Source: Tenrec ecaudatus (Eukaryota > Chordata > Mammalia > Afrosoricida > Tenrecidae). From it: a stretch of DNA of 64,000 bases. Below the pieces are notes generated by a model, which was not told the origin of the DNA, ran no database searches, and saw nothing but the letters and a program-made list of their open reading frames with translations. The stretch lies in NCBI RefSeq assembly GCF_050624435.1, contig NC_134539.1, positions 41,882,001 through 41,946,000 on the forward strand, read 5' to 3'. Positions 1-60,674 of the stretch are shown here, piece by piece. Both the position numbers and the translations under genes were made by a program. How positions within the stretch are numbered: position 1 is the first letter of the stretch; each line of letters begins with the position of its first letter.

Positions 1-78
1 TCATCAAGTTGATCCCCAACGTAGAGACTATGTCATTCTCCAAGAATTATGGGCAATAGTTCTGTACTTTCTAGGGGT
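1..78. repeat. Right end of a preceding duplication unit
   Basis: These bases match about 25575-25650 and 53840-53915, which are the closing bases of the spacers of units 1 and 2. Shared landmarks are the words AGAGACT, TGTCATTCTCCAA and CAATAGTTCTG. The match stops at about 78, where unit-1-specific sequence begins. It implies that another unit of the same array lies to the left of the window. Confidence 0.75.
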
Positions 79-189
79 TCCTGGAGGATCACCTCAAAGG
101 GCGTGCCTTTATTTCCTCAAAATTCTCCTAGTGGTGAGATGGCTTCTTTTAAACTGTCCAACACATTTTAAAACCAATAAATTAGCTGT

Positions 190-505
190 TAGCCTTTATT
201 TGCCGTGCTGGAGGAGAATGTTGCAAATAGCATGGGCTGCGAAAAGGACGAACCAGTTTGTACAAACCAGTATGCCGAGAAGGCTCCCTAGAGAGCACTC
301 CCTGAAGAAAGCCGCCACCTTTGGTAAAAGGTGCAGAAGAGGCAAGCTCTCAATGACATGGTGTGACACAGTGGCTGCAACAATGGACTCGGGACCAAGC
401 ACAATTGTGAAGAGGGCGCTGGACCGGGCAATGTTTCCTTCTGTTGTGCTATGTGTCGGTACTGACCTGATGCCACATAGCAACAATAACGACGTATTAG
501 CTGTT
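190..505 (+). mobile_element. RTE-clade LINE, 3' end fragment
   Basis: The translated + strand shows a decayed RTE ORF C-terminus, with stretches like AAKRTNQFV and TVAATMDSG that correspond to the conserved AKRTNKSV and TVAATMGSS region of afrotherian RTE elements. It ends in a short tail with CAACAATAAC, as expected of an RTE 3' terminus. The element is strongly 5' truncated. No coding capacity remains. Family assignment is from memory of the protein motif. Confidence 0.75.
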
Positions 506-1099
506 GCTGCTGAACACCCTTGATAACAGGTGAATCAAAAGCTGGAGGTGAAAGGCTAGTGAATGAGAAAAACAAGGAATGAAGTCATTAACAAGGAACC
601 GTACCTAAAAGAGTTCTAGAAGGTAGAATTTTAAACTGGTTGGTTGCATGTTTGTTGAAGTTGTGTTCCTATATACATGAAGAGTACATGGAAGCAATGA
701 TCGGCACATGTCCTTTTTTTCCTTTCAGGCATTTAAGGACCTCTCTGTCAATAAAGTAGTAGAATAATAGTTGTATTAACTGGATTTCCTTGTAGGGAGT
801 GAGAATTGTCGTATCACAGTCAGCACTGTACTGCAAGACAGATTTCAAAATACCCTTTTGAGAAACTCTTTGTGAATCAATAGCTCACTTTTGAGCTTAA
901 CAATCTAATATCTTGGCACTCACACAGTAAAAAACTAATTAGAAAATTAATTCAGCAATGTCATCGATCAAACCACAGCTCCTACAATCAGCAACAAGAA
1001 CCTATGAGGAGGGGGAAGTACAAAATACTATCTGCCACTTGACAATATGAAGGGACTTCAAAAAGTTTGTAGAAAGAATCTATTACCTTTTTAAATATA

Positions 1100-1448
1100 T
1101 ATATGTTTTATTAGCATCTCCAATCATTCCAATACATCCCTTCTGTTAACCTGCAGCTCTGTTGCTCAGTCCCATCAGGTGTGCTATACAATCACCAGTT
1201 CTATTAACACCCTCTCCCCGCTTCCTCTCTCTCTCCAGACGCTCAGGGACCATTGCTCCTACCACTGTCTCAGAGGGGTAGTCTGTCTTCAGTACCATGT
1301 ACCAATCAATCCTAAATATATAAATGAACATATGCAAATCTAACCTGATTAATGAGGTATATGACATAAAGACTTAATAGCAAGGGGAGCAAATCTTAAA
1401 GAACTAGAGGACAGTTACGTGGTTCATCAGTGCCGTACTTCACACTGG
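1100..1448 (-). mobile_element. Possible older L1 3' UTR fragment
   Basis: The stretch near 1380-1440 (AAGAACTAGAGGACAGTTACG and the following bases) resembles part of the L1 3' UTR type seen at 1940-2000. The preceding 250 bases are pyrimidine rich and not clearly assignable. It may be a diverged L1 relative into whose edge the next fragment inserted. Confidence 0.3.
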
Positions 1449-2760
1449 ATTTTTTAAAAATCTTTTTAATAGGGGCTCATACAACTCTTATCACAATTCA
1501 TATATACATCAATTGTGTAAAGCATATTGTACATTCACTGCCCTCATCATTCTCAAAACATTTGCTCTCCACCTCAGCCCCTGGCATCAGCTCCTCATAT
1601 TTCCCCTCCCTCCCTTCTTTTCTCTCCCTCATGAACCTTTAATAATTTATAAATTATTATTTTTTTCATAACTTGCCCTTTCCGACGTCTCCCTTCACCC
1701 ACTTCTCTGGTGTCCATCCTGCAGGGAGGAGGTTATATGTAGATCCTTGTAATTGATTACCCCCTCCAACCCAACCTCCTTCCACCCTCCCAGTATCACC
1801 ACTCACACCACTGGTCCTGAAGGGATCATCTACCCTGGATTCCCTGTTTTTCCAGTTCCTGTCTGTACCAGCGTACATCCTTTGGTCTAGCCATATTTTA
1901 AAGTAGAATTGGGATCATAATAGTGGAGGTTGGGGGGAGGAAGCATTTAGGAACTAGAGGAAAATTGTATATTTCATCATTGCTACATTACCCCCTGATT
2001 GACTCATCTCTTCCCTGAGACCCTTCTGTAACGTGATGTCCAGTGGCCTACAAATGGGCTTTGGGTCTCCACAACGCACTCCCACCTCATTCACAATGAT
2101 ATGATTATTTTGTTCTGATGATCCCTGATACCTGATCCCTTCGAAACCTCATGATCACACAGGCTCCTGTGCTTCTTTGTTGCTTCTGAACTAGATGGCC
2201 ACTTGTATACCTTCAAGCCTTTAAGACCCCAGTGCTATATCTTTCAATAACAGGGCATCATCAGCTTTCTTCACCACATTTGCTAATGCGCTCATTTGTC
2301 TTCAGCGATCGTATCAGGGAGGTGAGAACACAATGATATGATTTTTTGTTCTTTGATGCCTGATAACTGATCCCTTCAACACCTTGTGATCACGCAGGCT
2401 GATCTGCACCCTGGATTTGTCCTCCATTTTGTGTGGCCCTCTTTGAGGGACATTCCAATTGTCTTGCTGGTGGATTTGGGGTCTCCACTACATCCACTCC
2501 TTTTCATATCAATTCGATTGCATGTTCTTTGAACTTCTGATAGCTTTTCCCATTGACAGTTCCTGATCACACAGGCTGCTGTGCTTCTTCCATGTGGACT
2601 TGGTTGCTTACCTCCTAGATGGCTGCTTGTTTAACTGCAATCCTTTAAGACCCCCAAACTCTATATCTTTTGATAGCCAGGCACCATCAGCTTTCTTCAC
2701 CACATTTTGTCTTCAGTGATCATGTCTGAAAGATGGGTACCATACAATGCCACATTATTA
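1449..2760 (-). mobile_element. L1 3' UTR fragment, 5' truncated
   Basis: On the + strand it begins with a T-rich stretch and GGGGCTCATACAACTCTTATC, the reverse complement of the 3' end of the L1 type repeated throughout the window. It runs through the CCCTCCCT-rich tract and the AATTTATAAATTATTATT landmark into two imperfect copies of a roughly 240-base unit (about 2096-2335 and 2336-2750). The second copy carries an extra stretch. No ORF part is present. Confidence 0.85.
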
Positions 2761-3556
2761 GAACAAATCATTCTTGTACTTGATGTGTATTTTAATTCCA
2801 TTATCCAGAAACCCTTCAAAAGGCCCTTTGTATTCAGAATGTCTGAAAAAAACATGAGAGATTCAAATAAACAAAATATGCCATGTACACATGGGGGGAA
2901 AGTCAATAAAAATCATCCCCGTGGAAGCCAGAATTTTAACAAACTTTATATAAACTGTTTTTTCAGCATGCTCAATCAAAGAAAGTCATGCACAACCTCC
3001 CTGGGCTAAAAAGAATTAAATATAACATGTACATAAAATGACAAGTGTTAGTGAGCATTTGATGAAGATACAACTCTTAAACTCTATGGATTGGAAGGTA
3101 AAATGGTGCAGTTGACGTGAAAAAGAGCTTCAAGGAGAGACAGAAAGTTAAACACACATAGGTAAGGATTTGGGTCATCACTGCTGTGGTCCATAGTAAG
3201 CCAACTCCAACACAGGTGAGGAACTACTGGCTAATAGACAGGCAATCATCCCTCCCACTTACTACTCCTTCTAATCCCTCTGCTCTTTGGTTTCAGAATC
3301 TTTAATGGTTACAATATAGGCTCAATGCCAGGCTGTATGAATTTGTTTCCCAGTTCCTAACACTTACAAATTATACAATTTTGGAGAAGAAACAACTTGT
3401 ATTGTTTCTCACACGGGCTAAAACATAATGAATCTCAAATGAATACCACATTTATCTCAAAGAATTAAATAAAGATTTTATATACTAAAGATATAGAAAG
3501 CACACAGATGGAAAAGTCTGCTTCAAAAGACCTCTCTAAAGTTTCACAGAACAAAA

Positions 3557-4012
3557 ATGTCGCTGTTGGGATCTAAAGTGTACCTTAGTTAAACTAAGGT
3601 GCATCTTAGTGGTATTTTCAATCAGCTCATATGCTTTCAAAAGCTGGACAATAAATATTGAAGATTGGAGAAGAATGCATGCATTTGAATTAGGGTGTCG
3701 GCTAAGAAGACTGAAAAGTCCATGGAGTGCCAGAAGGAGAAAGGAATCTGTATTGAAAGAATGACAACCAGCTTGTTCCCTGAAAGCCACTATAGCTAGA
3801 CTTGATCTCAAGCACAGTAGGCACGTTCTCAGGCGGGACCAGTGCCTAGCGGAGGACATTATCCCTTGTAAAAGGCAGGTTCAGGGAAGAAGAGGAAGTC
3901 CCTAATGAGATGGGTTGATACACCGGCTGCACCAATGGGCTCAGATCCAATAGTTGTGAGGACGCTGCAAGACCGAGCACTGGTTCACAATGCTGTACAT
4001 CAGTCAATGTAC
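3557..4012 (+). mobile_element. RTE-clade LINE, 3' end fragment
   Basis: The + strand reads like the RTE ORF end region: an AAGGTGCATCTTAG segment, then AAAGCTGGACAATAAATA, GGAGAAGAATGC and a distal GATGGGTTGATACACCGGCTG segment. These correspond in order to the same landmarks as at 190-505 and 50689-51195. It is 5' truncated and heavily mutated. It closes the 4.2 kb unit-1-specific segment. Confidence 0.75.
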
Positions 4013-4359
4013 TGCTGCACACTCCAGGGTGCGAAAGAACAATCGAACAGCACAGTGCTTCAAAAATGCCCAACATTCAGAGTATGCTCACTAGAGTTTT
4101 CTGGTATTAAATGGCAAGTATTCCAAGAATGTAGCATTGCATTTGAAATCAATTAAAGAAGAAATGCAAAAGGGAATTAAGAAGGAATGACCAATTTTAT
4201 CATTTTATAGGTATTTAACAATACAATAAAATTGCTTACTCCAACCCTTTTAAAATACTACCACTTTCAGAGTCTCAGACTCTCCATCTGTCCAAAGGAC
4301 CAGTTATGCTAACTAGTAGTTGGAGCGTTCTATGAGCCCTATTGGGTGTGGGAAACACT

Positions 4360-4525
4360 GACTCCTGGTGATGCAGTGAATAAAGTACTAGCAGTTGACC
4401 ACCCGGAAAGTGGGTAGTTTGAACCCACATGTTGCTCCCTTGCATGGGACCGAGTGACACTGTACTTCCCATAAATCACAGCATGTTTTCTCCTGTAAAT
4501 TGGAATCAAGTCAGTAGATGAATAG
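4360..4525 (+). mobile_element. AfroSINE, diverged copy
   Basis: A tRNA-derived head is visible as GGTGATGCAGTG, then an AGTTTGAACCCAC box-B-like segment, and a body with CTTCCCATAAATCACAG and ATTGGAATCAAGTCAGTAG. These correspond in order to the AfroSINE consensus words (GGTGGCGCAGTGG, GGTTCGAACCCACC, GTCGGAATCGACTCG). The same copy is present at 25728-25887 and 53995-54150, so it predates the unit duplication. Confidence 0.65.
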
Positions 4526-5691
4526 TATATGCAAAAGTGGGTGATTTATGACAAGGATAATGGAACATTTTTCAAGTAATGTCAAAAAAAAACCCACACT
4601 CACTAAAGACTCTTGCGTCTGTTTGAGCCATAAAATCTTCACACATGGTGGCGCCACCGAGGGCATTATGTGTTTCCTGGGTTGCGGGGCAACGAGGAAA
4701 CACCAATTACCTGACATAATCAGTCTGTGGGACCTTCTCCCTGGAGCTTTGGAAAGTTTCTAATCCTCCGTGTTTACCTGTCTAACTTTAATTGCTGTAC
4801 TGTCGGACAGTTTGCCTCTCTCCCTACATATTCTTCACACACATACACACGCAATTTGAACGGCTTTGCTAGGCAAATACCTTGCTCTTTGCAGGGAGTC
4901 TCGAGTTTCCAGCCACTGGATTCAAAATGTAGCAGGTCTGTGGATGAAGACACAGGGGATTTTATGGACATTTACTTTCCTACTTTTTTCTTTTTCTGAA
5001 CAAGAAAGTCAGGATAATTTCTTGAGCCTCATCTACCAGTTTTACTTGAGGAACAGTCTCCTGGTAAGTGGAAGAGAGAAGGGAATAATGATGCCATCTT
5101 GCGTCGTGTTCATTTATGTCTACCGACAAGTGTCTTCCATGCAATTGTACAATGGAGATCATTTCCTGAGGTGAAACTAAGCAGTTCACAAGGAAAGATA
5201 ATGAAAACAAATCAAAGATATGAAGCCATTTTTCAGTCCAGATTTATACAAATTCCATCTTCTGATTTTGAAAATCCTATTGTTCAATTTAAGGGTCAGG
5301 CATTAATTGTGTATATTTTAATTGGAAATATCTAACTTTGTCATCTGTCCACTTTTCATTAGTTAGTGTAATTGCAGTTCTATGCTATATTTCATGTCAT
5401 TGTCTGGATCATTTTCTTAACAAAGCTTTTAGGTATTAAATGGTCTTATTTAAATAAGAGAAAAAGCAAGTTGCAAGTTTCAAAGGTAGGAACCTTTATT
5501 CCTCCTAATGTAATAGTGCTCTTCTCAAAATACTGGCTTCACACATTCTCTCACAAAGAATGAGAAAATGTGATGCTTTCCTTCTGGGACTCTAACTTCC
5601 AGCATCGGTGCAAAGTGGGTGTGTTCGTTCCTGTTTTATTTGTTTGTCTGTTTTTCCAGTAGGTATGTAATTTGAAGACTATTTTTGGACC

Positions 5692-5816
5692 TATGAGAAA
5701 GATGAGGCAGCCTACACCCATGAAGGCTTACACTCTCATAAATTCTTTGTAATATTTATATAACGTTGCTGTGAGTTGGAATCAACTCCACAGCAGTGGG
5801 TTTATTGGATCTGTAA
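5692..5816 (+). mobile_element. AfroSINE, 3' portion
   Basis: The words GATGAGGCAGCCTACACCC, GCTGTGAGTTGGAATCAACT and CAGCAGTGGGTTT are the AfroSINE body and tail. The head is missing. The same fragment occurs at 27069-27180 and 55330-55434, the latter keeping the less mutated AATCGACGCC. Confidence 0.8.
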
Positions 5817-6611
5817 TGTACTGAGAATATCAATCCTCTGTTCCAAATGTGTGTCACTCCAGCAGATTTTTTTCGGTTATCATCAGCAGTCGGTATGACC
5901 ATCACTATAAAATTATGGGGAAGAAAGCTGAAACAGCTCACATATCATATGTACCATCTGTAGAGTGAAGTTCAAAATAATTAAGTACAAACTAAGACAA
6001 AAATATGGTTCCTGTATCTAACCCTGTTGAGATGAGAGAACATAAGCCACTTCTTTTTTCACCCTTTCTGAAACCTTTTGACCCAGGATCATTTGTGGTC
6101 AGTATCACATTTTATCCAGTGCCCTAAAGTTTCCTGCACTGTAGACTGAAATTTTGTTTTATAATGTGTGATGTTCACACCAAAGTCTGCCACTGTATCC
6201 TCAGCAAGGTCTTGTTTTGATTTCTACCAACCTAGATCAATGTGGACTGATAGGTATCATCCAGGTGAGGGAGGGAATCCGAATATCTATTCCACGAGTT
6301 CCTGCTGGTGCCAAGTGCTTTCATTAGTAACAGGGGCACTGAGCAGAGCGTTCAGGCTATCATAGTGACAGGAATGTTGGCGTGTGGTTGAAATCTGTAG
6401 GTGGCAGATCCTCATCTTCTGTCACTCCACTTGAGGTCTGGCTTTGGTTGACTGACTAGCAACATTTTTAATCCTCTCTCGGATTAACACCCAAACCTAT
6501 ACGAACCGCAGTGCACACAGTTCACTGTCTGACATAATACAGGGTTTTGAAAGATTGGGAGCTTACAGTGAGGCAATGCTCACTTATTACCCTAATCCAT
6601 TAGGCGCACCC

Positions 6612-6777
6612 CAAAGACATGAAAGTGGAGTAGAAACGTCCCACAAGGTGTCCGAGGCTACATGTCTTTAGGGAAGCCTCCTGCTATATCGTCTTCCTGT
6701 TGAGAAACTACTGGGTCAGCAATGCCATCCTCTTGGCTACAGGGTGAGTTCTTAACCGCTGTACCACCAGGCTATCT
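6612..6777 (-). mobile_element. AfroSINE, reverse orientation, with possible target-site duplication
   Basis: Read on the - strand it shows the SINE head (complement of GTACCACCAGG), the box-B region (complement of GGGTCAGCAATGCC) and body words (complements of AGGGAAGCCTCCTGC and GTAGAAACGTCCC). It is flanked by similar words, TTAGGCGCACCCCAAA on the left (about 6600) and TTAGGCATACCCCCAAAA on the right. The same insertion is at 27985-28145 but absent from the third copy near 56240. Confidence 0.7.
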
Positions 6778-8885
6778 CATTAGGCATACCCCCAAAAGAG
6801 TTACTTTTGCTCAACATTGCTTTGTTTTTAAATTAGAGCAATAGTTTATGACAATTCCATTTTAGCTCTAAAACTTGAAAATGATATGAAAAGAAAGCAT
6901 CGTAGCTGTTTAATTAATGCAGGATTACTTGTGTGAAAGATTACTCGTTGGCCTTGAGAAAAACCGAAGCTATGATAATTCTGTTCATTTACTGCTGTCT
7001 CCTCACCACTAACCTCAGCAATATTGTCTAGTATATACTATTATTTCTCTATGTTGAATAAATAGATAGGTATTTAAATATTATAGTTAGCTTGAAAATT
7101 GCTTTCAAATCATGAACCATTTTTAATTGGATATTCTTGTAAGATCTGTGAAGAAACTATTATAAATTTGTAGATTAGGAAAACTTGACCCTGAAATGTG
7201 TGCTGACCTAGGAACTGTCCTAGCACATGGGTTTAGATTGTCTAACAGTGGAACATTGGTTCTAATACTCTTAATTAAAGACAAGCATCACCCAAGAAGA
7301 ACCAAATATCATTTGTGCTTCAACTGTCTACCATACATTCAGCCTATGCTATCACAGGTAAATTTACACCCCACTCATCAACCTTGCTGACCCCAATACA
7401 TCGGTGAGGACATATGATATAAGAGAAGCTAGAAATATAGCATAACATCACAGAGTTTTATGAGAGACACAGTTAATATTTTGGTTTGATTTGTTCTTGG
7501 GTCTTCTGGAGGGAACTTGAAGGGAAAATAAATGTGCACTCTCCATAGAATATAAAATAGAACTTCTGCAAGAGTTTGGGGAGGGACAAGGGTGGAAAGC
7601 TCACTAAAAAAAAAAAGGCATGGAGAGTAGATTTGTTTAAAGGTTATATTCCCTGTTATGATCAAGCTTGTTACAGGAACAGCTTTCTTTCTTAATGGTT
7701 TCTGTCATAACTCATCAAGAGACAGAGAACCTCCATCTGAATGGGTCAGTTACTATAATAACATCAGTTAATGTAATAACTAAATGATCACTTAGACCTG
7801 GGTGTGGGGGTCCCAACAGACCTTTGGTCTTCACTTTCAAGTGAAGCTCTGGTTTTCATGGACTATTGGAAAGCTGAGTTGAAAACCTAGGAGAAATTGG
7901 AGGAATGTCATTTTTTCCCATGGAAAATATGACTTAAAGATTCAAGTTTGACCTAAAATGAATCAGGGGAAATACATCTTATTCCAAAACAAGATGAAAT
8001 TCAAGTAAGTTTCTCTACAAACCAGTGAAGGAACAGTGATTGAACTGAAAACCAATGGCTGCAGGTAACCAAAGCCCGATTGCTGGGCTGACCGGGGAGG
8101 CAAGTGCATGCTCCTGGTGCCACCTCTCTGCAGTCCTTTTGCAGTGTTATCTCTGCTAGCCCCTGGTCAAGACTCGATTATTTGGAGAAAAAAATGAGAA
8201 TTCCTTAATGTTCCATATAATGTAATTTACCAAGAAGCTATTTTTTCTTTCTGACTTAAAAAGTGAAAGAAAAAATAGTTTCTCTTGAGATTATTCTGAT
8301 TCATAATGAACTTGCATGGATCAGAATAACACTGCTCCACAAGGTTCTAAATGGTTTCCTAAAAGTTTATCACAAGGACTTTCAATCAAGGCACCTCTGG
8401 ATAGTCAACCCTCCAATTGTTCAGTTAGCACCAATGTCCAAATGGACCACTTGGGAATCCCCTCCCTCTTTTCTGTTCCTTTTTTCCCCTGACTCCTGCC
8501 CTCCTATAGAATTTGATGGGCTACCTGCCCCACTAATGCCCGTTAGCCTCAACACATTACCTCATCTCATTTCTCCTCAGCTCTTCAAAGCCCAATTCAA
8601 TTGACATAATGAATTGTTGTTTGAATCGTCTCTTAAATGATCTCTTCGTCTTTGTAGTAACTCTGATAGTAGTGAATTTGGAAGTCGCAATAAAGCATGC
8701 GAAGTGGATGAGAACCTTGATGAGGGAAATTGACCTCCCACCAACAGAACCTCACCGCATAGCACACGGGTGGTGCATTGATTCACCTATGTATTTCTGA
8801 CCTTATGTGCTAAAACAGGAAGAGAGTGAACCTTGTTCAAGTTCATGCAAAGTAACTTGGAGACATTCAATTCAAAATCTTGGAG

Positions 8886-9095
8886 TGCTTAACTTCCACT
8901 GAGTCCACTCTGACTCATAGTGACCCTATAGCACAGGGTAGAACTGACACTACAGGTTTCTAAGACTTAAACCTTTAAAAGAGTAGAAAGCCTCATCTTT
9001 CTCCTGGGGAACAGCTAGAGGATTTGAACTGCCTGTCTTGTGGGTGACCACACAATGCATCACCATTACCCTACCAGAGCTTTAACTATTTGACT
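8886..9095 (-). mobile_element. AfroSINE, reverse orientation
   Basis: The + strand reads CCACTGAGTCCACTCTGACTC, ATAGTGACCCTATAGCACAG and GTAGAACTGACAC, then GGATTTGAACTGCC and ACCCTACCAGAGCT. This is the reverse complement of the full AfroSINE order, tail to head. It is nearly full length and moderately diverged. It is found only in unit 1. Confidence 0.85.
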
Positions 9096-9736
9096 TTGAC
9101 TCTTGGGATAGATCATTCTTTCTTCTTGGCTTCTGTAATATCACTCTATCTTCATTTTTGTTCTGTCTTTGATACATTTTAACATTTCCTTATTAAATAT
9201 TTACTGTGCAATCTGTGTACTTATTTCATATACATTTTTGTAAGGGTTAGTTTCTTTTTCTAAAATAAGGTAAAATTTGGAATGAATTTAATTGTTAGGT
9301 TAATTTGGACAAATGACATCATCATCCTATTTTTTCAATTATTAATATGTCATACCATTTCAATGATGAGATACTCCTTTATGCTCTTTATCATACTTTT
9401 GATATTATTCCTATTACATTGGTCCATAGTGATGGCTGTTGAACGAGGTTAGCATAAAATAATTAGTACTATAATCTTCCATATATAATAAAATTTGAGC
9501 CAGACTGGTAATTAGAAAGCAAACATTCATCTGCATGTGGATAGACTCATCATATTGAAAACCACAAGAACTGGTCCTTTGCTCAGTGAAGTTGCTGTCT
9601 TAATGTGATTAAAGGCAAATAAGGAACCACTATTTATACCAGCACCGAACACCTCTGAGCGTTAAGAGGAGAGTAAATCCGCGCACAGCTGCTGTATGAA
9701 CTTGGCCCGAGGCACATCGCCTTTCTTGGCACTTTT

Positions 9737-10087
9737 AAAGAATAATTTTATTGGTGTCTCGTACAACTCACCACAATCCATACATACACATGCATTGTGT
9801 CGAGCACATTTGAACATATGTTGCCATCATTATTCTCAAAGCATTTGCTTTCTACTTGAGCTCTTGGTTTCAGCTCCTCAATTTTCACCTCCCTCCCCAC
9901 CCTACACACCTCATGAACCCTTGATAATTCATAAATTATTATTATTTTGTCATATCTTACACGGTACATCTACTCCCTTCACCCACTTTTTGGTTGTCCA
10001 TTCCCCAGGGAGGGGCTTAGATGTAGATCCTTATAATAGGTTCCCCCTTTCTACCCCACCCTGCCTCCACCCTCCCGGTATCGTGTT
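9737..10087 (-). mobile_element. L1 3' end, strongly 5' truncated
   Basis: The + strand has TTTTATTGGTGTCTCGTACA, a CCTCCCTCCCCACC tract, the ATAAATTATTATTATTTTGTC landmark and GGGAGGGGCTTAGATGTAGA. These are the first 350 bases of the reversed L1 3' UTR type seen elsewhere. It has no counterpart in units 2 and 3. Confidence 0.85.
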
Positions 10088-10412
10088 GACACTGCTTGCA
10101 ATTAGAAAAAAAACAGAGCAAAAATGAAAAAAAATAAAAGTTAAACTTACAAATAGTTGTCATAAGGACAAATATTTCAATACTATGAATTAAGACCTGA
10201 ATATTCTCTTTTGTTCTTCTTAATTATGTTTTAATTTAAAGCAAAATAAAACATTTTTATGACTATCCTAGTGACTATGCTAACTCTGTCTGGAAAAACC
10301 CACCTTGCATTCATGGCTCAAGAATTCAAATATACTTACAACCATATCAGGTATTATAAAAATAAAAACAATGGAGAAATACTTTCTAATTAAACAACGG
10401 TTAAACTTCAGT

Positions 10413-10580
10413 AAGGAACCCTGGTTGGTTCAAATTCTACAACCTCTCCAGGGAAGACAAACGAGGCTGTGAGCTTCCATAAAGTGTTGCCCTTCTCCAG
10501 CCCAGTAAGGAATTCCACGAATACCAGGGTCACTATGTGTCAGAAGTGGCTTGATAGCAGTGGATCTGGGTGTTTTATTC
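10413..10580 (+). mobile_element. AfroSINE, forward orientation
   Basis: It opens with the diagnostic GGAACCCTGGTTGG. It continues with GTTCAAATTC (box-B position), CCAGGGAAGACAAACGAGG, GTCACTATGTGTCAGAAGTGG and AGCAGTGGATCTGG. The internal box-A side is shortened. It lies within the unit-1-specific 3.0 kb segment. Confidence 0.8.
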
Positions 10581-11047
10581 ACACCCAGGAGCGAGCAGAC
10601 AAGAGAGGAAAGAGTTCTTAGGGGACACATGCTTCCAACTCAATGGCCAGCTATATAACCAGCTATACAGTAGAAATGGGTGGACTAATTTTAAATTATG
10701 TTAATTCATCTAAAGAGGATCAGGAACTCGGATTTTAATATCATATTTGCTATATTTAAGGTAATATTTATTCAAATTTAAGCACAGTATAGGTAATCCC
10801 TTACCTACATAGCTCATTTGCCTGCAAGATGCAGGTCATGGGACATGGATGGCAGATGCAGTGCTATGAAACTAGTGGGAATGGCAAGCAATGAGCTTCT
10901 CTGAACCCTGAGAAACTTAGGGTGAGGATTCCTATTGAAGTGGTCTAAGTACAGAGCAAGAAAATCGTCACAACACAGAACTTCAAAAATTCTGAAAATG
11001 ATGCTCTAAAAGACCTTGTTCTCCTAGGCTATTGTATTAACAAATTG

Positions 11048-11067
11048 CTATTCCATCCTTCTCACAG
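11048..11067 (+). promoter_or_regulatory. Putative 3' splice site of the OR13C8-like gene
   Basis: A pyrimidine-rich run (CTATTCCATCCTTCTCACAG) ends in AG at 11067, 28 bases before the ATG. OR genes commonly have their single coding exon spliced to upstream non-coding exons. The same site is kept in the other copies, ending at 29455 and 57540. This is inferred from the motif only; no transcript evidence is available. Confidence 0.45.
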
Positions 11068-11095
11068 TGCCTGTGTGAGAAAGCGTACGGGTAAC

Positions 11096-45452: not shown

Positions 45453-45473
45453 AGATAGATAGAGAGATGGATG

Positions 45474-45517
<44 letters not shown>

Positions 45518-47450: not shown

Positions 47451-47607
47451 ATTAATAGCTGTGCTTTAATAATAATAGGACAGCTGTATCATTAAAGTTG
47501 TTTATAATATAAACACAAATCAAAGAATGACTTCAAAGTTTGAAAGATGGTTCTTCTGTATACAGGGTCACTTTGCACCAAAACTTTTGATAGCATCTAA
47601 TCACAAC

Positions 47608-47900
47608 ATGCACTCAGTCCATGGGTTCTGCATCATCAGATTCAACCAATCATATATAAAAAATATTCTGATATGGCATCCCCAAAGACAATGATGCTTA
47701 AAGTGCTACTTACATAGCACTTATAGTGTATTAGCAATTAGAATTAATCTAGAGATTATTTTCAGTATATAGGAAGATGTACATAAGTTCTATGCAAAGA
47801 CTACAGCATTGTATATAAGGAAATTGAGCATACCTGAACTTGGGAATCCGTAGGGGTCCCGAAACCAATCCCTGTGAATACCAATGGATTATTATAGTTT
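47608..47900 (+). mobile_element. MER2-like DNA transposon relic (copy 2)
   Basis: Duplicate of 20124-20408, with CAGTCCATGGGTTCTGCATC and GGTCCCGAAACCAATCCCTG at its two ends. Confidence 0.65.
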
Positions 47901-49589: not shown

Positions 49590-50145
49590 TTTCTTGGATG
49601 GAGCTTGACTGAAAACAGAGAACACCAGAAAGATGTTTGCTTATGTTTCATTGATTATTCCAAAGCACTCAGCACTTTAGATCATAACAAATTTTGGATA
49701 ACCTTGAGAAGCCTGGGAATTCCAGACACTTTATGGTGGCTCATGAGTAATTTGTGCATGTATCAAAAGGCAGTTGTGCCAATAGAACAAGTGAATGATG
49801 TTTTAAAATCAGGAAAGGTATGTTTCATGGTTGTATCCTCTCACCATGCTTGTTCAATGTGTAGACTGGGCAAACAATCAGAGAAGATGACTTTCATGAC
49901 AAATATGGCATCAAGATTGGAGGAAGCCTTATTAACAACCTGTGTTATGCAGATGACACAAACCTGCTTACTGAAAGGAAGGAGGATATGAAGTACTTGC
50001 GAATGAAAATCAAAGATTGCAGCCTTCAAAGTGTATTACAACTTAATGTAAAGAAAACTCAAATCCTCACCAGTTTAAGTACCAATAGGTAACATTATGA
50101 CAAATAAAGAAAATATTGAAGATGTCAAAGATTTCATTTTATGTA
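49590..50145 (+). mobile_element. RTE-clade LINE, reverse transcriptase fragment (copy 2)
   Basis: VCLCFIDYSKALSTLDHNKF, GIPDTLWWLMSNLCMYQKAV and, near 49945, CYADDTNLL with the YADD box. Then a LNVKKTQILT segment near 50045. It is interrupted at about 50146 and continues after 50688. Confidence 0.88.
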
Positions 50146-50688
50146 GTAGTTACATAAACTGGTATCAGTTTGGGACTTGAGAGGATCAAGAGTGAAGCGG
50201 TGGAGTCTAGTCTATCAATCAGATCGTAGCCAGTGAGGCTTCTGTGTGAACATGGTCTTTACATGAGAATTCTGGGAAATCCTGCATTCCTTCTTGGATG
50301 TGGGACACAATTCTCTCTCTTTTCACTCCTTGTGAGACATCCTGAGGAGAAGCTGTGTAGACCTACCCTGATGCAGCCCTGGTGCTGGTGAGGCCATGTG
50401 GAGACCTCTGTCAGTGCTGAGATGCTTACACCACATCTGGATCCAAAGACTTTCTACCCACTGGCCTGTGATCATCCTACATTTGGTGTCATTGTATGTG
50501 TTTTGTGAGTCTGAAGAGGACTGTATAGATTGGTGTTGGACACATGGGCTAATATTGGATTTATGGGCTTGGACTGGACTGAGTTGGGATGCTTTCTTAA
50601 CACACCCTTTATATAAAACTCTCTCTTAGATGCATATGAGTTTCTGTGGATTTGTTTCTCTGGTCTGCGTGGACTAACACATCTTGTT
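50146..50688. other. Insertion of about 545 bases inside the RTE element
   Basis: The RTE reading breaks off after GATTTCATTTTA (about 50130-50145) and resumes with GATCCACAATCAATG (about 50690). The insert ends GGACTAACACATCTT, carries a TATATAAA word near 50612, and resembles a dispersed solo-LTR-like repeat. I cannot name its family. Spacer copy 1 has the left 110 or so bases of it and then differs. Confidence 0.45.
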
Positions 50689-51195
50689 TGATCCACAATC
50701 AATGCTCATGGAAACAAGAGTCAAGAGATAAAAAGATATATTGCATTAGGTAAATCTGATGCACAAGACCTATTTTTGTATTGAAAAGCAAGGATGTTAC
50801 TTTGAGAACTAAAGTATGCCTAACCCAAGTCACAACATTTTACCTTGTCTCATATTACTTGAAAGTGGGATATTAAATAAAGAAGACCAAAGAAAAATTA
50901 ATGCACTTGAATTGTGGTGTTGGAGAAGAATCTAGAGAGTACATGACTTGCTAAAAGGGCAAACAAATCTGTCTTGGGAGAAGTATGGTCCTAGTGATTC
51001 TTTAAGTCAAGGATGGCAAGAATTCATCTTCCATACTTCAGACAAGCTGTCAGGGAAGACCAGTCCCTGAAGAAAGACACCAGACCTTCACTGCAGTAAT
51101 GGGCTCAACAATAGAAACAGTTGTGAAGACGGTGCAGGACCAGGCAGTACGTTGCCATAAGTCTGAACAGATTTGATGACACCTGACAACAACAT
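50689..51195 (+). mobile_element. RTE-clade LINE, 3' end (continuation)
   Basis: Resumes the interrupted RTE: GATCCACAATCAATGCTCATG, then AAGCAAGGATGTTACTTTGAG, TTGAATTGTGGTGTTGGAGAA, GACCAGTCCCTGAAG and GATGACACCTGACAACAACAT as the terminal tail. The corresponding stretch is missing from the first spacer. Confidence 0.8.
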
Positions 51196-51329
51196 TTCTG
51201 AGTATGTGTTTCCACACAATAATGAGATGGGTACAGGACTGTTTTCTTGGTGATCTGAACATCATACAGTAAGCTGATTTCTGAAATAATGAAGACAAGA
51301 AAGTAGATGAGTGTTATAAAATATGAGAG

Positions 51330-52180
51330 GGTACCTTCTCCTAAAACAGAGTTATTTTTTAAAGCTATGTGCTTAAACATTTTTACAAAACAACCTTATC
51401 ACCTTCAAAACACCCTCCATTCCACTCAATACATTTGCCAAACATGCGATTGCACTCTTAGGAACAATTTTATAACTCATTTGTTTGGGTGGCTCATGGT
51501 ATCACCCGGTTTATTTCCTTCACTGCTTCTACATCATCAAATCAGAAAATTGCTGCCCTTGCATGTCCCTCTTCATTCGTGGAAACAAAAGGCAGTCCTA
51601 CTGAGAGAAGTCAGGTGAGAAAGGTGCATGGGGAAAGAGAGGCTTGCTGGGTTTTGTCAAAAAAAACTGGTGCACTGAGATGGCTGCATGAGCAGGTGCA
51701 TTGTGGTGGTGGCAAAACCAAGCCCCCAACTGCCACAAATCAGGCCTCAGCCAAACTCCAAGCTAGTACAGATAGCTTGCTCATCTCCCCAGTGGTCTGT
51801 CATCAATCTGCAGCATGAGTGTTTTCATCAATCAACATTTCACCTGTTTTGAAACAAGAAAACCACTTGCACACCGAGCTTTTCTGGTAGCGCAGTCCTT
51901 GTAAGCTGCGTTCAAATTCACAACAGTTTCTGCGGCATTTTTCCCAAGCAGGAAACAAAATCCCATAGCCTCTCAATCTTCTCTTAAATAGGCCAACCCA
52001 GAAATGTGGTTCAAAGAAACCTGCTTTTACGAGAAAAATTCACTGTGAACAGAGAGAGCCTTCCCAGGTGATGCCACTGGGTGCACTAGCTCAGAGCAAA
52101 TTGCTCCATGCTCGCCTAGCGTCCTATGAAAGCTCCACCTAGGGGGCATTTTTCCATTTCGGTGGTGGGTCCCCCCTCGA
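51330..52180 (-). mobile_element. Mariner-type transposon, internally deleted (copy 2)
   Basis: Duplicate of 23070-23935 with the same internal deletion, so the deletion happened before the spacer was duplicated. The catalytic-domain part (complement of CATGAGCAGGTGCATTGTGG and neighbours) lies at about 51640-51720. Confidence 0.85.
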
Positions 52181-53596
52181 ACATATGCAATAGAAAGTTA
52201 TTATGGAATGTGGTTAAAGTATCTTCTAATTTTATGACTTTGATCCAGGTAATATTCAATGCTGTAATAAAGGTGGCCCAAGCCATAACATTTACTTTGA
52301 TGATGGGATGAATGCATGTGGGGAACAATACCAGAGAAGCTGTCATGCATCTCTTAGTGCAACCCTTACAAATGGGGTTAAAAAGTGGGAGATATGTATT
52401 AGGAATATTCAGATGAAAGATTATTAAAAACAAAAACAATGAAAAAAGTCGACAAACTCAGTGACATGTCCAGAGTCTGAAAAGTGAACAGAAAACGGGC
52501 TAACTACTAAAGTCTTCATGGGCAACTCCAAGAGTATAGATGACTAGGATGCTCAATTACCTTCTCCTTCCCCAACACGAATGTAACTTCTTCACTCACT
52601 TTATTGCAGCCTTGATGAAAGTTAAATATTTGATGATACCACAAAAGAAGAATCTTTGGTCCCTTGAGAAGCCATGCAATGAGGCAAATAAAAACAAAAA
52701 ATTAAAGAGTTCAAGGAAAGGTTAATATTCCTAATCCACTGCCTGACTTGGTGTAAAACCAGCCCACCCGAGGTCCTTTGAATTGCTATGGATAAAATAA
52801 CCTGTGCTGAAGAAACCATATCAGAATTGCTGGACAATGGTGCCCAAGTTACCATAAAAATGAAATATTGTGAGGGGAAATACTTAAGGGTTGATATGAC
52901 CAAGTTAAATCAATGGAACTACTGAAAACTTAAATTCTCAGTCCAAATCCTATGAGGGATCTACTGATCTTGTTTCCAAAACTTTACTGTAATGTTTGTG
53001 TCTATTATTTTGTTCAGTTTTGGTTCACTCATAATAGAGTGTACTCAGGGGTTCTATGTCAGTGGAGGTCACCTTCTTGAAGCTGTGTTATATACTTTCC
53101 CATGTGTTGGCATAAGAAACCCAGGATTGATAAACCCATAAGGAGAGCAAATAGAATAAGGAGTCTGGGGAGGGGTACAGGGCTAGTGGTGGGGGTGGTT
53201 GCAAGGGGAACAATGACAAGGACTGCATGTAGAAAAAAGATTGTTTGCAAACTGACTGTAGTGACAATTGTACAATTCTCCTTAAGTGATTGAAATATGG
53301 TATGCTATGATATATGCATGACATCCCAACTAATTAAACAAAGACAATCAAACGAAAGAGTGTGGAGTGGGCTTTCACAAAAATGATAAAATAGGGAATT
53401 CTAAAGGCCACCCTTCCATGAATTTGCTGGCAAAAATGGAATCTTCTTTTTTTTTTTTTGAACTTTGAATTCCACTCAAAAACTTACAAAACAGCCACAC
53501 CACAGTAAGAGAGTTTTGTGGTATTTTAACAAGTCAGCCTAGAAGACAGCAGCCCACAAAACTGGTAGCTTGCCACTGGGCAGTAGGAACAGTGTA

Positions 53597-53765
53597 TCAA
53601 AAACCAAACCCACTGCCAGGGGGTCCATACCAATTTGGAGTGACCCTTAATGACAGAATAGACCTTTCTCTTTGGTTTTCAGAGACTGTAAGTCTGTTCA
53701 CTAGCAGACAGCCTCACCTTTGCCTGTGAAACAACTGGTGTGTTCACACTGTGGGTGTTGGCGTT
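53597..53765 (-). mobile_element. AfroSINE, reverse orientation (copy 2)
   Basis: Duplicate of 25338-25510, with AACCAAACCCACTGCCAGGG at the start. Confidence 0.7.
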
Positions 53766-53994
53766 AATAAGCTAACATATAACACACACCACCACCAGAT
53801 CCTCCAGGGGAATAGACCCAGACTAAACCAACTCTCAGTACCATCAAGTCGATCTCCAGCATAGAGACTGTGTCATTCTCCAAAAATAGTGATCAATAGT
53901 TCTGACCTTTCTAGGGTTCAAAAACAGACCAGTTATGCTAACTAGTAGTTGTGGTGTTCTATGAGCCCCATTGGGTGTGTGAAACACTGACTCT

Positions 53995-54150
53995 TGGTGA
54001 TGCAGTGAATAAAGTACTAGCAGTTGACCACCCGGAAAGTGGGTAGTTTGAACCCTCAAGTTGCTCCCTTGCATGGGAATAAGTGACACTGTACTTCCCA
54101 TAAATCACAGCATGTTTTCTCCTGTAAATTGGAATGAAGTCAGTAGATGA
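53995..54150 (+). mobile_element. AfroSINE, diverged (copy 3)
   Basis: Duplicate of 4360-4525 and 25728-25887. Confidence 0.65.
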
Positions 54151-55329
54151 ATAGTATATGCAAAAGTGGGTGATTTATGATAAGGGTAATAGAACATTTT
54201 TCAAGTAATGTCAAGAATAAAACCACACTCACTAAAGACTCTTCCATCTGTTTGAGCCATAAAATCTTCACACATGGTGGCGCCATTGAGGGCATTGTGT
54301 TTTTCCGGGGTTGCGCGGCAAGGAGGACACCCCAATTACCTGACATAATCAGTCTGTGGGACCTTCTCCCTGGAGCTTTGGAAAGTTTCCAATCCTCCGT
54401 GTTTACCTGTCTAACTTTAATTGCTGTATTGTCGGACAGTTTGCCTCTCTCCCTACATATTCTTCACACACATACACACGCAATTTGAACGGCTTTGCTG
54501 GGCAAATACCTTGCTCTTTGTAGGGAGTCTCTGGAGTTTCCAGCCACTGGATTCACATTGTAGCAGGTCTGTGGATGAAGACACAGGGGATTTTATGGAC
54601 ATTTACTTTACTATTTTTTTCCTTTTTCCGAACAAGAAAGTCAGGATAATTTCTCGAGCCTCATCTACCAGTTTTACTTGAGGAACAGTCTCCTGGTAAG
54701 TGGAAGCGAGAAGGGAATAATGACGCCATCTTGCGTCGTGTTCATTTATGTCTACCGACAAGTGTCGTCCATGCAATTGTACAATGGAGATCATTTCCTG
54801 AGGTGAAACTAAGCAGTTCACAAGGAAATACAACGACTAAAACCAAGGATATGAAGCCTTATTTCAGTCCAAATTTATACAGTTTCCATCTTCTGATTTT
54901 GCAAATGCTATTGATCAATTTATGGGTCAGACATTGATTGTATATATTTTAAATGGATATATCTAACTTTGTCATCTGTCCACTTTTCATTATTTCATGT
55001 AATTGGAGTTCTATGCTGTATTTTATGTCATTGTCTGGATCATTTTCTTAACAAAGCTTTTAGGCATTAAATGGTCTTATTTAAATAAGAGAAAAAAGAA
55101 TTACAAGTTTTAAAGCTAGGAATCTTTTTCCCCCCTAATGTAATAGCATTCTTCTCAAAAATACTTACTTCACACATTCTCTCACAAAGAATGAGAAAAT
55201 TTGACATTTTCATTCTGGACTCTAACTTCCAGTATCAGTTAAAAGTGGGTGTGTTAGTTCCTGTTTTATTTGTTTGTCTGTTTTTCTAGTAGGTACGTAA
55301 TTTGAAGATTATTTTTGGACCTATGAGAA

Positions 55330-55434
55330 AGATGAGGCAGCCTACACCCATAAAGGCTTACACTCTCATAAATTCTTTATAATATTTATATAACGTTACT
55401 GTGAGTTGGAATCGACGCCACAGCAGTGGGTTTA
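55330..55434 (+). mobile_element. AfroSINE, 3' portion (copy 3)
   Basis: Duplicate of 5692-5816. The tail GAGTTGGAATCGACGCC is closest to the AfroSINE consensus among the three copies. Confidence 0.8.
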
Positions 55435-57568
55435 TTGGATCTATAATGTACTAAGTATATCAATCCTCTGTTCCAAATGTGTGTCACTCCAGCAGATTTT
55501 TTTCTGTTATCATCAGCAGTTAGTATGACCATCACTAGAAAATTATGGGGAAGAAAGCTGAAATAGCTCACATATCATATGTACCATCTGTAGAGTGAAG
55601 TTCAAAGTAATTAAGTGCAAACTAAGACAAAAATATGGTTCCTGTATCTAACCTTGTTAAGATGAGAGAATGTAAGCCACCTGTTTTTTTACCCTTTCTG
55701 AAACCGTTTGACCCAGGATCATTTGTGGTCAGTACCATTTTGTACCCAGTGCCCTAAAGTTTCTTGTAGTGTAAACTCAAATTTTGGGTTTTAATTTGTG
55801 ATGTTCACACCAAAGTCTGCCACTGTATTCTCAGAAAGGTCTTGGTTTGATTTCTACCACACTAGATCAATCTGGACTGATAGGTATCATCCAGGTGAGA
55901 GAGGGAATCCTAATATCTATTCCACGTGTTCCTGCTTGGTGCCAAGTGCTTTCATTAGTAACAGGGGCACTGAACAGAGCGTTCAGGCTATGATAATGAC
56001 AGGAATGTTGGCGTGTGGTTGAAATCTGTAGTTGGCAGATCCTCATCTTCTGTCACTCCACTTGAGGTCTGACTTTGATTGACTGACTAGAAACATTTTT
56101 AATCCTCTCTCGGATTAACACCCAAATCTATAAGAACCTCAGTGCACACATTTCACTGTCTGACATAATACAGTGTTTTGAAAGATTGGGAGCTTTATGA
56201 TGAGGGAATGCTCACTTACTACCCCAATCCAGTAGGCACACCCCACAAAAGAGTTGCCTTCTCTCGACATTGCTTTGTTTCTAAACTAGAGCAATAATTT
56301 ATGACAATTCGATTTTAGCTTTAAAACTGGAAAATCATATGGAAACAAAGCAATAAGTTGTTTAACTAATACAGAATTACTTGTATGAAAGATTATTCAT
56401 TGGCCTTGAGAAAAACCAATTTTATGATAATTCTATTCATTTACTATTGCCTCCTCAACACTAACCTCAGTAATACTGTCAGGATATACGATTATTTGTC
56501 TATGTTGAATGAATAGATAGGTATTTAAATATTATAGTTAGCTTGAAAATTGCTTTCAAATCATGAAGCATTTTTAATTGGATACTCATAAAATCTGTGA
56601 AGAAATTATTGGTAAGTTTATTGATTGGGAAAACTTGACTCTGAAGAGTATGCTGACCAAGGAACAATCCTAGCCCATGTATTTAGATTGTCTAACTATG
56701 AAACTTTGGGTCTAATACTCTAAATTAAAGATAAGTATAGCCCAAGGAAGAATCAAATCTATTTTGTGCTTCTGCTGTATACCATACACTTATCCTATGC
56801 AATTAAAGTTAAATTTACATCCACTAATTAACCTTGTTAACCCAATACATAGGTGTGAACATAGGATCTAAGTGAAGATAGAAATACAGCATAACATCAC
56901 AGGATTCATGAAAGACACAGTTAAGAATTTGGTTTGGTTTGTTCTCCTGCATATAGGACTACAACTTTTGTATAATGTTCAGTGTGACTTGGGTTTTCAG
57001 AGCGAGCTTAACGGGAAAATATACCTGCACTCTTCCATAGAATATAAAACAGAACTTTTGCAAGAGTTGGGGAGGGACAGGGGTGGAAAGCTCTTTAAAA
57101 AAACAAGGCATGGAGAGTAGATTTGCTTAAAGGTTATATTCCCTGTTATGATCAAGCTGGTTACAGCAACAGTTTTCTTCTCTTAAGGGTTTCTGTCCTA
57201 TCTCATCAAAAGACTAAGAAACTCCATCTGAATGGGTCAATTAATATAATGAGATCAGTTAATGTAATAAGCAAATGATCATTCAGACCTGGGTGTGGGG
57301 GTCCCAACAGAGCTTTGGTCTTCAGTTTCAAGTGAAGCTCTGGTTTTCATGGACTGTTGGAAAACTGAGTTGAAAACCTAGGAGAAATGGGAGGACGGTC
57401 ATTTTTTTTCCGTGGAAAATATGACTTAAAGATTCAAGTTTGACCTAAAATTAATCAGGGGAAATAGATCTTATTCTAAAACAAGACCTTGTTCTCCCAG
57501 GCTATTGTATTAACAAATTGCTATTCCATCCTTCTCACAGTGCCTGTGTGAGAAAGCGTACGTGTATC

Positions 57569-58524
57569 ATGGAAAGAACCAATGATTCCATGTTGACAGA
57601 ATTCGTCCTGGTGGGGCTTTCTGCCTACCCCAAACTCCAGACTGTGTTCTTCGTGCTAGTTTTATGGATGTACCTGATGATCCTGCTGGGAAATGGAGTC
57701 CTTATCTCAGTAATCATCTATGATTCTCACCTGCACACCCCCATGTATTTCTTCCTCTGCAATCTTTCATTCCTGGACATTTGCTACACAAGCTCCTCTG
57801 TCCCACTAATCCTCGACAGCTTCCTCACAGTACGGAAAACCATTTCCTTCTCAGGATGCGTGGTGCAAATGTTTCTCTCCTTCGCTATGGGAGCCACTGA
57901 GTGTGTGCTCCTGGGCATTATGGCACTTGATCGCTGTGTGGCAATCTGCTACCTGCTTCGATATCCTGTGATCATGAGCAAGAACACCTATGTGCCCATG
58001 GCAACTGGGTCACTGGATTTACTAATTCTCTTGTGCAGACATCTCTTGCAATGCAGTTACCATTCTGCACTAATAATGTTATTAACCATTTTATCTGTGA
58101 AATTCTGGCTATCCTGAAACTGGCCTGTGCTGATATTTCCATCAATGTGATTAGTATGGCTGGGTCTAATGTGATTGTTCTCATAATCCCCTTGCTAGTA
58201 ATTTCTTTGTCTTACATTTTCATTGTTGCCACCATTTTGAGGATTCCGTCTACTGAAGGGAAACGTAAGGCCTTCTCCACCTGTTCCGCCCATCTAACGG
58301 TGGTGATTATATTCTACGGAACCATCTTCTTCATGTATGCAAAACCCAAGTCCAAAAATTCTGCAGGTTCCGATCATCAAGACATTATTGACGCCCTCAT
58401 CTCCCTCGTCTATGGAGTGATAACTCCTATGCTCAATCCCATCATCTATAGCCTGAGAAACAAGGATGTCAAGGCTGCTGTGAAGAGCATGCTGGGTAGA
58501 AAACACTTCTCTGATGGCATGTAA
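57569..58524 (+). pseudogene. OR13C8: Olfactory receptor, OR13C8-like, frameshifted (copy 3)
   Basis: It is over 95 percent identical by eye to copies 1 and 2 but broken. At about 58008 one of two adjacent TGGGTC words is lost, a 7-base deletion that shifts the frame at the end of the second intracellular loop / TM4. The first frame then runs to a stop at 58117. The receptor reading resumes in another frame from about 58033 to TAA at 58524 ([11 protein letters not shown] to KHFSDGM). Two further changes hit conserved positions: DRY is DRC (residue 123) and YPLRYP is YLLRYP. The splice acceptor, ATG context and 3' end are kept. It is probably a recent pseudogene. Confidence 0.93.
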
Positions 58525-59724
58525 GCACTCCTTGACTCTTTGTGACCTGAGATTCAAAGCTTCTAGAGACCCAGAATTTGGAAAGAGGAAACTGTTGTAT
58601 ATTAAAAAATTATTCACCATTTGTTATTGAAATAACAAAATAGTAATATTTTCATAGCTATCGTTATTCACAAGTTTTCTAATTGCAGAAATAAAATAAT
58701 GTAAAATGTAAGCACTCTCAGTCAGAGAATTAAACTTTATAAAACAATCAGGTCATAAGTCATTGTAAAATTCACTTTTTAAAATATGTTAGTTACAGTA
58801 ATATTTATGCAACATAAATAGTAAACCATGTATGGCATTGTATTATTTACCTTATCGCCCCACAGGTATATGTTCCCTGAGAAAATGAATTTGTCTCATT
58901 ATTATCCAATGGTATCCCAAAAAGCACCCCTATCACAAAGGCTGACATATGTTCACAACAAATATTTTTTAAATTCATATAAGGTTCACATACTATAAAA
59001 ATCAGAAATACATATTGATCATATATGAAGTAAGAAAAAATTTAAAGTTGATTAAATGCAATTAATTCAAATTGAACTGTGTTGGCCTTTTGTCATTTAA
59101 TTAATCATTATTTGGTAGTGTATTATGTGATTTCTATGTGATGTGCAATATTATGTGGAACAACAGATTTTTTTCACCCTTTGTCACATCTTCCTGAGAT
59201 TTGGTATTTAATATGACCAAAATAAATGAAGGAGTCCCTTCGTAATGCATCTTAAGTAGAAGTTAAAGGAATTCATGTAACATAGTAGCAGAGAGTTCCT
59301 TTAGCTGAATGAAAGTCCAAAGGGCTTAGAGACCCGATTGCAATGAGGACTTCCTTCCTAATCCACAGTGGATTTCACAAGCTCCGAAGGAGTGAAGCTC
59401 CTGGGCATAACTGGTAACTGGGAAAACCTGCATCAACGAGCCAGCAGAGGCAGAGGGGAAAGTCCAGTTCTTCAATGAACGAGGTGCTACAGAATTGGGG
59501 GCAAACAGTCTGGTTTTCTTGAAGAGTGCCCACATACATGACAGCATCCGTGTGGAGAATAGAAGCCACAATTCTCCTGGCGGCCGAGGCCAATGTGGAC
59601 AGGGCAGTGTTTCATCTGTCACTGTGGGTCAACAACAACATGGTCCATACAGGAAAAAAACACTCCACTTAATTTAGCTCTCTGGGGAGTTCATGGGAGT
59701 TGAGACACAGATCACAAATAAAAC

Positions 59725-59798
<74 letters not shown>

Positions 59799-60674
59799 TA
59801 ACTACTAAATTTTAAAATCTCAATTCTTTCTTCTTAACTTGTAACTTGTATTACTTCATAAGCTTAAATGAGTTAATCCTTAATACCTTGAACATTCTAA
59901 AACATTGCCTATTGTGTTTTTAATATGTGATATTTATATTATATTAGGTTGAAAAGCATTTAGTAGACACACAATTTTTATCTTATTAAAATATTTTGGT
60001 GTCATTAACTGTTGTTTTTCCACTTTAATCATTTTTCAAATTTTTCTATGTTGTGACACAGGTTTTGGACACAGAACAAATGAATTTCTCCTTGATCAGG
60101 TGGCTGCTGTGGCATTGTTTAGCTTGCTCTCGTATAGTTCTTACTGGGCATTTTTGTCTAAACTCTAGGAGCAGAGCCATCTCTTCCAAGATCTAGCTCT
60201 AACACAGGGATTTTATTTCTAGTAAATCAATCTTGAAATCTTGAATATCTTGAAATTTAGTTTTTTAAAAAGTAAGATGAATACAATAATCTTCTTAAGA
60301 AATGTCAATCAGATGGATCGTGGGAGATCTATTTTGCCTGTCCATCATTTCCTTCCTTACGCAGCTAAACTGCAGAAAGACCTGGTCAAGACATTTGACT
60401 TTCTTCTATAGTGGTTTGCTTGTTTCTACAATGTAGATAATGACAGGCTTTTTGGTTTATTTTAAAATAGAGTCATCTCCAACATCATATAACTATATGA
60501 AAGAAGAACTTTGAATACTTCATCAAATCCTAAAATATTTGTGAAGAAGGACTATCTTTTCACGCTGGGGAAAATAAGAGAAAAGAAATATGTATATACC
60601 TCCACTTTTTTCACTGATGCATATCTAGCACCTATCTAGATTTTAGATTTGCTGTGTAGTACACTATTTTCATA
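58525..60674. repeat. Duplicated downstream block, copy 3, truncated at the array end
   Basis: Collinear with 12059-14160 and 30447-32575. Homology ends abruptly at about 60674 after CACTATTTTCATAAATTTG, well before the OR13C3-like gene position. No gene is seen. Confidence 0.9.
59728..59795. repeat. Long (TA)n microsatellite
   Basis: 34 TA units, uninterrupted, at the site that holds (TG)n in unit 1 and a short (TA)n in unit 2. Confidence 0.97.

Follow-up and report, generated by a model that had tools for sequence, protein, structure and literature searches.

Olfactory receptor (OR) genes of two kinds, OR13C8-like on the forward strand and OR13C3-like on the reverse, make up a tandem array of three units in the stretch of Tenrec ecaudatus DNA analysed here (contig NC_134539.1, positions 41,882,001 to 41,946,000; these 64,000 nucleotides are called the window). 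We consider it likely, with a probability of roughly 0.8, that this is a class II OR array founded on an old duplication of a divergent gene pair, in which units 1 and 2 came to be alike later, gene conversion acted in patches and single loci decayed. The three copies of the module, 1, 2 and 3 from the left, are referred to as units 0, 1 and 2. The gene names OR13C8 and OR13C3, with the human gene order that they imply, are our assumption.

In a chained self-comparison of the window, 42,720 of the 60,673 bases in 1-60,673 fall into collinear paralogous alignments, and nine between-unit alignments exceed 2.2 kb, with identities of 87-95%; the length and identity of these alignments, together with the proportion of collinear bases, indicate a tandem array rather than chance resemblance. 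A first-pass annotation of the window had proposed such an array, and the long collinear diagonals to be expected of it in a self dot-plot are present. The three OR13C8-like loci (+) alternate with the two OR13C3-like loci (-) in constant order and orientation, as it had described, and the ATGs of the former (11096, 29484 and 57569) are spaced by 18,388 and 28,085 bp, in agreement with the 18.4 and 28.1 kb originally given. Three collinear upstream blocks were likewise recovered, 4294 pairing with 25656 and 4298 with 53927 (their starts had been placed at 4297, 25665 and 53927). These starts are simply the end of a 4.2-kb difference and not true limits, because units 1 and 2 remain homologous further to the left. 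Bases 1-78, which had been assigned to a further unit, do not represent one: bases 2-76 align with 25577-25650 and 53842-53916, directly to the left of the blocks of units 1 and 2, and are part of unit 0, about 4.2 kb away from its block at 4298. Identity is 82.7% between bases 2-76 and 25577-25650, and 83.5% between bases 2-80 and 53842-53919. Collinear units, constant order and orientation and common boundaries are all found, and the long diagonals and shared unit limits lend good support to the original proposal that one ancestral divergent receptor pair was duplicated in tandem.

The homology of copy 3 stops at 60673, which corresponds to 14160 in copy 1 and 32572 in copy 2, and within 47 bp of this end the divergence between copies 1 and 2 falls from 12.3%, to the left of the limit, to 3.4% from about 14207 onwards. 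Taken together, the end of homology and the fall in divergence point to 14160/14161 and 32572/32573 as junctions and to 60673/60674 as the right edge of the array, and these are most likely the unit boundaries; a later event at 60674, either an insertion or a rearrangement, is a possible alternative cause of the homology end in copy 3.

Divergence is uneven along the units. It was segmented at two penalties, a stricter and a milder one. Under the stricter penalty, the divergence between units 1 and 2 is 4.0% in 14161-17726, 12.7% in 17727-23270 and 4.3% in 23271-32572; under the milder, long parts differ by 2.7-4.3%, with extra segments at 15054-15476 (11.1%) and over the 100 sites 20980-21079 (35%, perhaps misaligned). 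The milder penalty also divides the comparisons that involve unit 0, which differs from unit 1 by 13.3% in 6565-7940 and 12.3% in 13242-14206 as against 2.9% in 7941-12090 and 2.0% in 12446-13241, and from unit 2 by 14.3% in 6566-7793 and 14.1% in 13237-14160 as against 3.5% in 7794-12195 and 2.7% in 12411-13236. Shuffling produced a split at this penalty in 0/100 trials per pair, and the differences are clumped in each of the three pairs, the variance per 200 sites being 91-100 compared with a maximum of 19-28 in 2000 shuffles. An old between-unit divergence of about 11-14% is broken up by tracts of 2-4%, and in view of this unevenness the idea that all units share one recent age was rejected.

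The fraction of variable sites that are private to unit 0, a measure with little dependence on the local rate, changes abruptly along the alignment. In the left part it is 15/51 (4308-4997), 46/55 (5023-5576), 39/97 (5578-6788) and 129/155 (6803-7917); over the gene and its 3' flank, 11/56 (7918-12055), 28/54 (12069-12521) and 0/20 (12529-13024); and at the right end, 55/91 (13066-13945) and 33/36 (13950-14151). Fisher tests against 6803-7917 gave P values of 2e-17 for 7918-12055 and 6e-14 for 12529-13024, and a third contrast gave 2e-8, all to be taken as a guide only, since the stretches were picked after segmentation. Synonymous divergence (dS) is 0.065 between genes 1 and 2, 0.058 between genes 1 and 3 and 0.088 between genes 2 and 3, so that gene 1, unlike its flanks, is not an outlier. 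Over the noncoding 3' flank (unit 0 12417-13218), 19/800 sites differ between copies 1 and 2, 23/800 between 1 and 3 and 29/800 between 2 and 3, and the last of these distances shows no parallel drop. These distances and the site patterns argue that interlocus gene conversion, and not constraint alone, has probably acted in the array; constraint as the sole cause of the low-divergence tracts was rejected on the same grounds.

That the units stem from plain recent tandem duplications without conversion, their uneven divergence being due to constraint and regional mutation rate only, appears unlikely. The coding exon is, to judge from ratios of nonsynonymous to synonymous divergence (dN/dS) of 0.23-0.33 between copies, under purifying selection, and there are patches in which every pair is diverged, both of which would fit such an account; against it, the unit-0-private fraction switches between 0-20% and 83-92%, and the dS of the genes does not leave gene 1 outside. 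Several points nevertheless weigh against a history of conversion superimposed on old divergence. The stricter penalty left both unit-0 comparisons unsplit, the site-pattern test that yielded nine segments in the data returned more than one segment in 9/300 shuffles, and the stretches 5578-6788, 12069-12521 and 13066-13945 have intermediate private fractions (39/97, 28/54 and 55/91). All three pairs are diverged in the patch 12217-12416 (26, 30 and 18 of 200), which means that rate variation contributes too, and faster mutation is possible in 17727-23270, which is represented by two copies in the window. As the comparison draws on the array's own units alone, conversion may have run in either direction between them, and any of the states at a site may be the ancestral one. 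Abrupt switches in the relationship of the paralogues, beyond rate variation, are found all the same, with some stretches intermediate.

The first-pass annotation had further seen in the array an expansion in progress, a view that the data do not bear out: the units carry an old divergence of about 11-14%, only three of the five receptor loci are intact, and the fresh look of the copies comes from low-divergence tracts with conversion-like site patterns. Near-identical copies were not seen, the lowest segment differing by 2.0% over 795 sites, with single 200-site windows reaching 0. That copy number is still expanding, with polymorphism inside the species, is accordingly quite improbable in our estimation; the structure of the array permits unequal exchange, and for most of the length over which they align units 1 and 2 differ by about 4%, but even the most alike segments are still 2-4% apart, next to the old divergence and the broken loci. 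It is highly unlikely that the assembly set alternative haplotypes of one or two loci in series. Differences of 2.7-4.3% over long parts of units 1 and 2, in a comparison of the assembled sequence, would be compatible with such an artefact; a 5.5-kb stretch between the same units differs by 12.7%, however, the divergence of unit 0 reaches about 14% in stretches of kilobase length, and the units are separated by multi-kb structural differences. Such a picture is rare among alleles.

This old array, apparently rewritten in patches, probably came about as follows. An ancestral divergent pair, consisting of an OR13C3-like gene (-) followed by an OR13C8-like gene (+) with its upstream region, would have been duplicated in tandem with limits at 14160, 32572 and 60673, sufficiently far back for a divergence of about 11-14%. 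Units 1 and 2 would later have arisen or become alike (about 4%), probably via homologous unequal exchange between units. Interlocus gene conversion would then have overwritten patches, including the OR13C8-like coding exon and 3' flank of unit 0 relative to units 1 and 2. Single loci would meanwhile have decayed, one OR13C3-like gene through a truncating deletion and the third OR13C8-like gene through a deletion of 7 bp.

The array is apparently a case of ordinary OR birth-and-death evolution, with copies that are old, partly broken and apparently overwritten in patches, not fresh duplicates. OR clusters in general are described in passages of PMC1995454 as tandem arrays formed by unequal crossing-over, with conversion mosaics, pseudogenes and surroundings rich in long interspersed element 1 (L1), and unequal crossing-over in OR arrays figures also in a passage of PMC3308321. 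With the mammalian class II clusters portrayed in the former passages the present locus shares single coding exons of about 1 kb, related genes in tandem, an average spacing of about 25 kb, L1-rich surroundings, pseudogenes and conversion. It differs from them in nothing of kind, its particulars being a two-gene module present three times, a conversion-like mosaic and mapped unit limits. The human OR13C cluster is an example of such a class II cluster. A primate OR cluster with gene conversion and recent pseudogenes, from which ours differs in belonging to another lineage, was reportedly treated by Sharon et al. in 1999, to go by the title and by the citations in PMC1995454 and PMC1794568. Among afrotherians, large lineage-specific OR duplications in elephant and golden mole are put down mainly to tandem duplication in passages of PMC6916060; the likeness lies in the lineage-specific duplication, and none of these duplications could be matched to the present locus. 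Among the papers listed by a search on OR13C8 together with OR13C3, no title or abstract opening concerned the present array, and we do not claim that the locus is undescribed. Where conversion is active, low divergence between OR genes need not mean recent duplication, and dating OR expansions by coding sequence alone can mislead.

Three of the five receptor loci are intact; the broken two are pseudogene 3, in which the 7-bp deletion spans frame codons 146-148 (aligned columns 437-443), and the OR13C3-like copy of unit 1, which stops near codon 107 at a deletion junction. A tblastn search with one protein per kind returned the five loci and one extra weak match (E 0.072). When the translations of four loci, the truncated OR13C3-like copy being left out, were compared with Pfam, all four matched PF13853, the OR profile within the class A G-protein-coupled receptors (GPCR), with scores of 189.6, 182.8, 70.8 and 172.5 bits, the third for the 5' part of pseudogene 3, where the gathering score is 27. 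The OR motifs listed in a passage of PMC12294341, namely GN in transmembrane segment (TM) 1, LHxPMYFFL in TM2, DRYVAIC in TM3, SY in TM5, KAFSTC in TM6 and PxLNPxIYSLRN in TM7, were recognized by eye in the protein sequences encoded by gene 1 and by the intact OR13C3-like gene; gene 2 has KAFATC for KAFSTC. Among solved chains, consOR2 scores best for gene 1. The proteins of gene 1 and of the intact OR13C3-like gene are 66.6% identical in amino acids, which fits one subfamily under the usual 60% convention. Going by their family, the intact genes probably work as ordinary odorant receptors.

Five of the 11 residue differences between genes 1 and 2 fall within residues 200-207 (equalled in 2/20,000 random placements), and 6/18 of the changes private to gene 2 lie inside 22 bp (30081-30104; equalled in 6/20,000), both windows having been chosen after the data were seen. 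At up to 3 mismatches, no second copy or donor of the 22-bp stretch was found in the window. Residues 200-207 precede the SY motif of TM5 by 10-17 residues, which places them in upper TM5; odorant-binding residues are located in TM3, TM5 and TM6, among others, in passages of PMC12294341 and PMC3308321. With the OR13C3-like gene as outgroup, one of the six cluster sites is derived, two are ancestral and three are not polarised, so that no clear polarity emerges. A tentative and rather doubtful suggestion is that conversion keeps most of the OR13C8-like exon alike and that gene 2 escaped it in the single 22-bp stretch, whose six private changes alter the five residues in upper TM5, part of the usual odorant pocket; either selection for a new ligand specificity or micro-conversion with a donor paralogue beyond the window would be the cause. 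Two intact OR13C8-like receptors with few differences, focused in upper TM5, offer a small test case for changes of ligand specificity between paralogous ORs.

Table 1. Coordinates of the array units, receptor loci and other features in the window.
Feature	Position	Strand	Description
Unit 0 (partial, off left end)	1..14160		3' part of old module copy with OR13C8-like gene 1; collinear with 25577-32572 and 53842-60673
Unit 1 (complete, 18,412 bp)	14161..32572		Homology end at 60673 and divergence jump
Unit 2 (complete, 28,101 bp)	32573..60673		Array right edge 60673/60674
OR13C8-like gene 1	11096..12058	+	Open, 320 aa; Pfam PF13853 E 1.3e-55
OR13C8-like gene 2	29484..30446	+	Open, 320 aa; differs from gene 1 at 11 residues
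OR13C8-like pseudogene 3	57569..58524	+	Frameshifted at codon 146 by a 7-bp deletion; DRC in place of DRY
OR13C3-like pseudogene (unit 1)	14696..15017	-	About codons 1-107 remain
OR13C3-like gene (unit 2)	41720..42673	-	Open, 317 aa; Pfam PF13853 E 2.1e-50
Upstream block, unit 0	4290..7994	+	89% identity to 25650-29401, 83-93% to 53927-57486
Upstream block, unit 1	25656..29401	+	
Upstream block, unit 2	53927..57486	+	About 180 bp missing, flanked by imperfect direct repeats
Old-divergence segment, unit 1	17727..23270		12.7% from 45383-51525; about 4% either side
Unit-0-only, about 4.2 kb	79..4289		L1 3' sequence and pieces like RTE or short interspersed elements (SINE); insertion into unit 0 or loss from units 1 and 2
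Unit-0-only, 3.0 kb	7995..11009		Mixed repeats; ends 86 bp before ATG; insertion or loss
Long L1, nearly full-length-looking	33325..40830	-	Remains of reverse-transcriptase coding sequence, Pfam RVT_1 36696-37322; 3'-end repeat alignments; 5' limit approximate, by eye

Before each OR13C8-like ATG, all three copies keep TATTAAC as a putative branch point, together with CCTAG or CCCAG and CACAG as putative splice acceptors, as judged by eye; because of this conservation, the upstream block is most likely the promoter and 5' noncoding exon region. The right end of the 3.0 kb confined to unit 0 lies just left of the putative branch point and acceptors, which suggests that this sequence sits inside an intron that separates a 5' noncoding exon from the coding exon. 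In a scan of the whole window, the upstream blocks contained no EBF/Olf-1 site, whether by the strict consensus TCCCNNGGGA or by two looser forms. On both strands the strict consensus occurs at a single site, 10002, and the looser forms add 14053, 18647 and 62997; the matches at 10002 and 18647 sit in repeats taken for L1 ends. Rfam and tRNA scans of the window found nothing.

It had also been claimed that every difference in length between the units comes from an identifiable insertion or deletion. This stands in part; it fails for the polarity of the 4.2-kb and 3.0-kb differences, at which there is no clean target-site duplication, and for a replacement. A single retrotransposon insertion was considered as the likely source of these two differences and rejected, on the strength of their mixed repeats, judged by eye, and of the missing clean target-site duplication; the names RTE- and SINE-like for pieces in 79-4289 are our assumption. 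In unit 2, 33106-42350 (9.2 kb) is absent from unit 1; about 7.5 kb of it has the look of an L1, and the remaining 1.7 kb or so includes the 3' part of the OR13C3-like gene. This L1 showed no clean target-site duplication, its best flank match of 10 bp being matched or beaten by 31/200 random controls, a few of which may have struck paralogous or overlapping stretches. Unit 1 has 173 bp (18299-18471) that are absent from unit 2. The replacement concerns 22768-22976 (209 bp, unit 1) and 50270-51231 (962 bp, unit 2), which occupy the same place without mutual alignment and so do not represent a simple insertion or deletion.

SINE- or RTE-like repeats lie at 8885-9090, 53612-53760, 200-500 and 3888-4014, and we take them (AfroSINE-like and RTE-like) to be afrotherian in appearance. 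Microsatellites were noted at 13248-13293 (TG), 45453-45543 (AGAT), 59728-59795 (TA) and 60909-60951 (ATTA); the matching place holds TG in unit 0 and is TA-rich in units 1 and 2, the TA array at 59728 consisting of 34 perfect copies. To the right of the array, Pfam gave no match for 62085-62795 in translation, and 62085-63400 (+) reads like what we presume to be a decayed processed copy of EWSR1.

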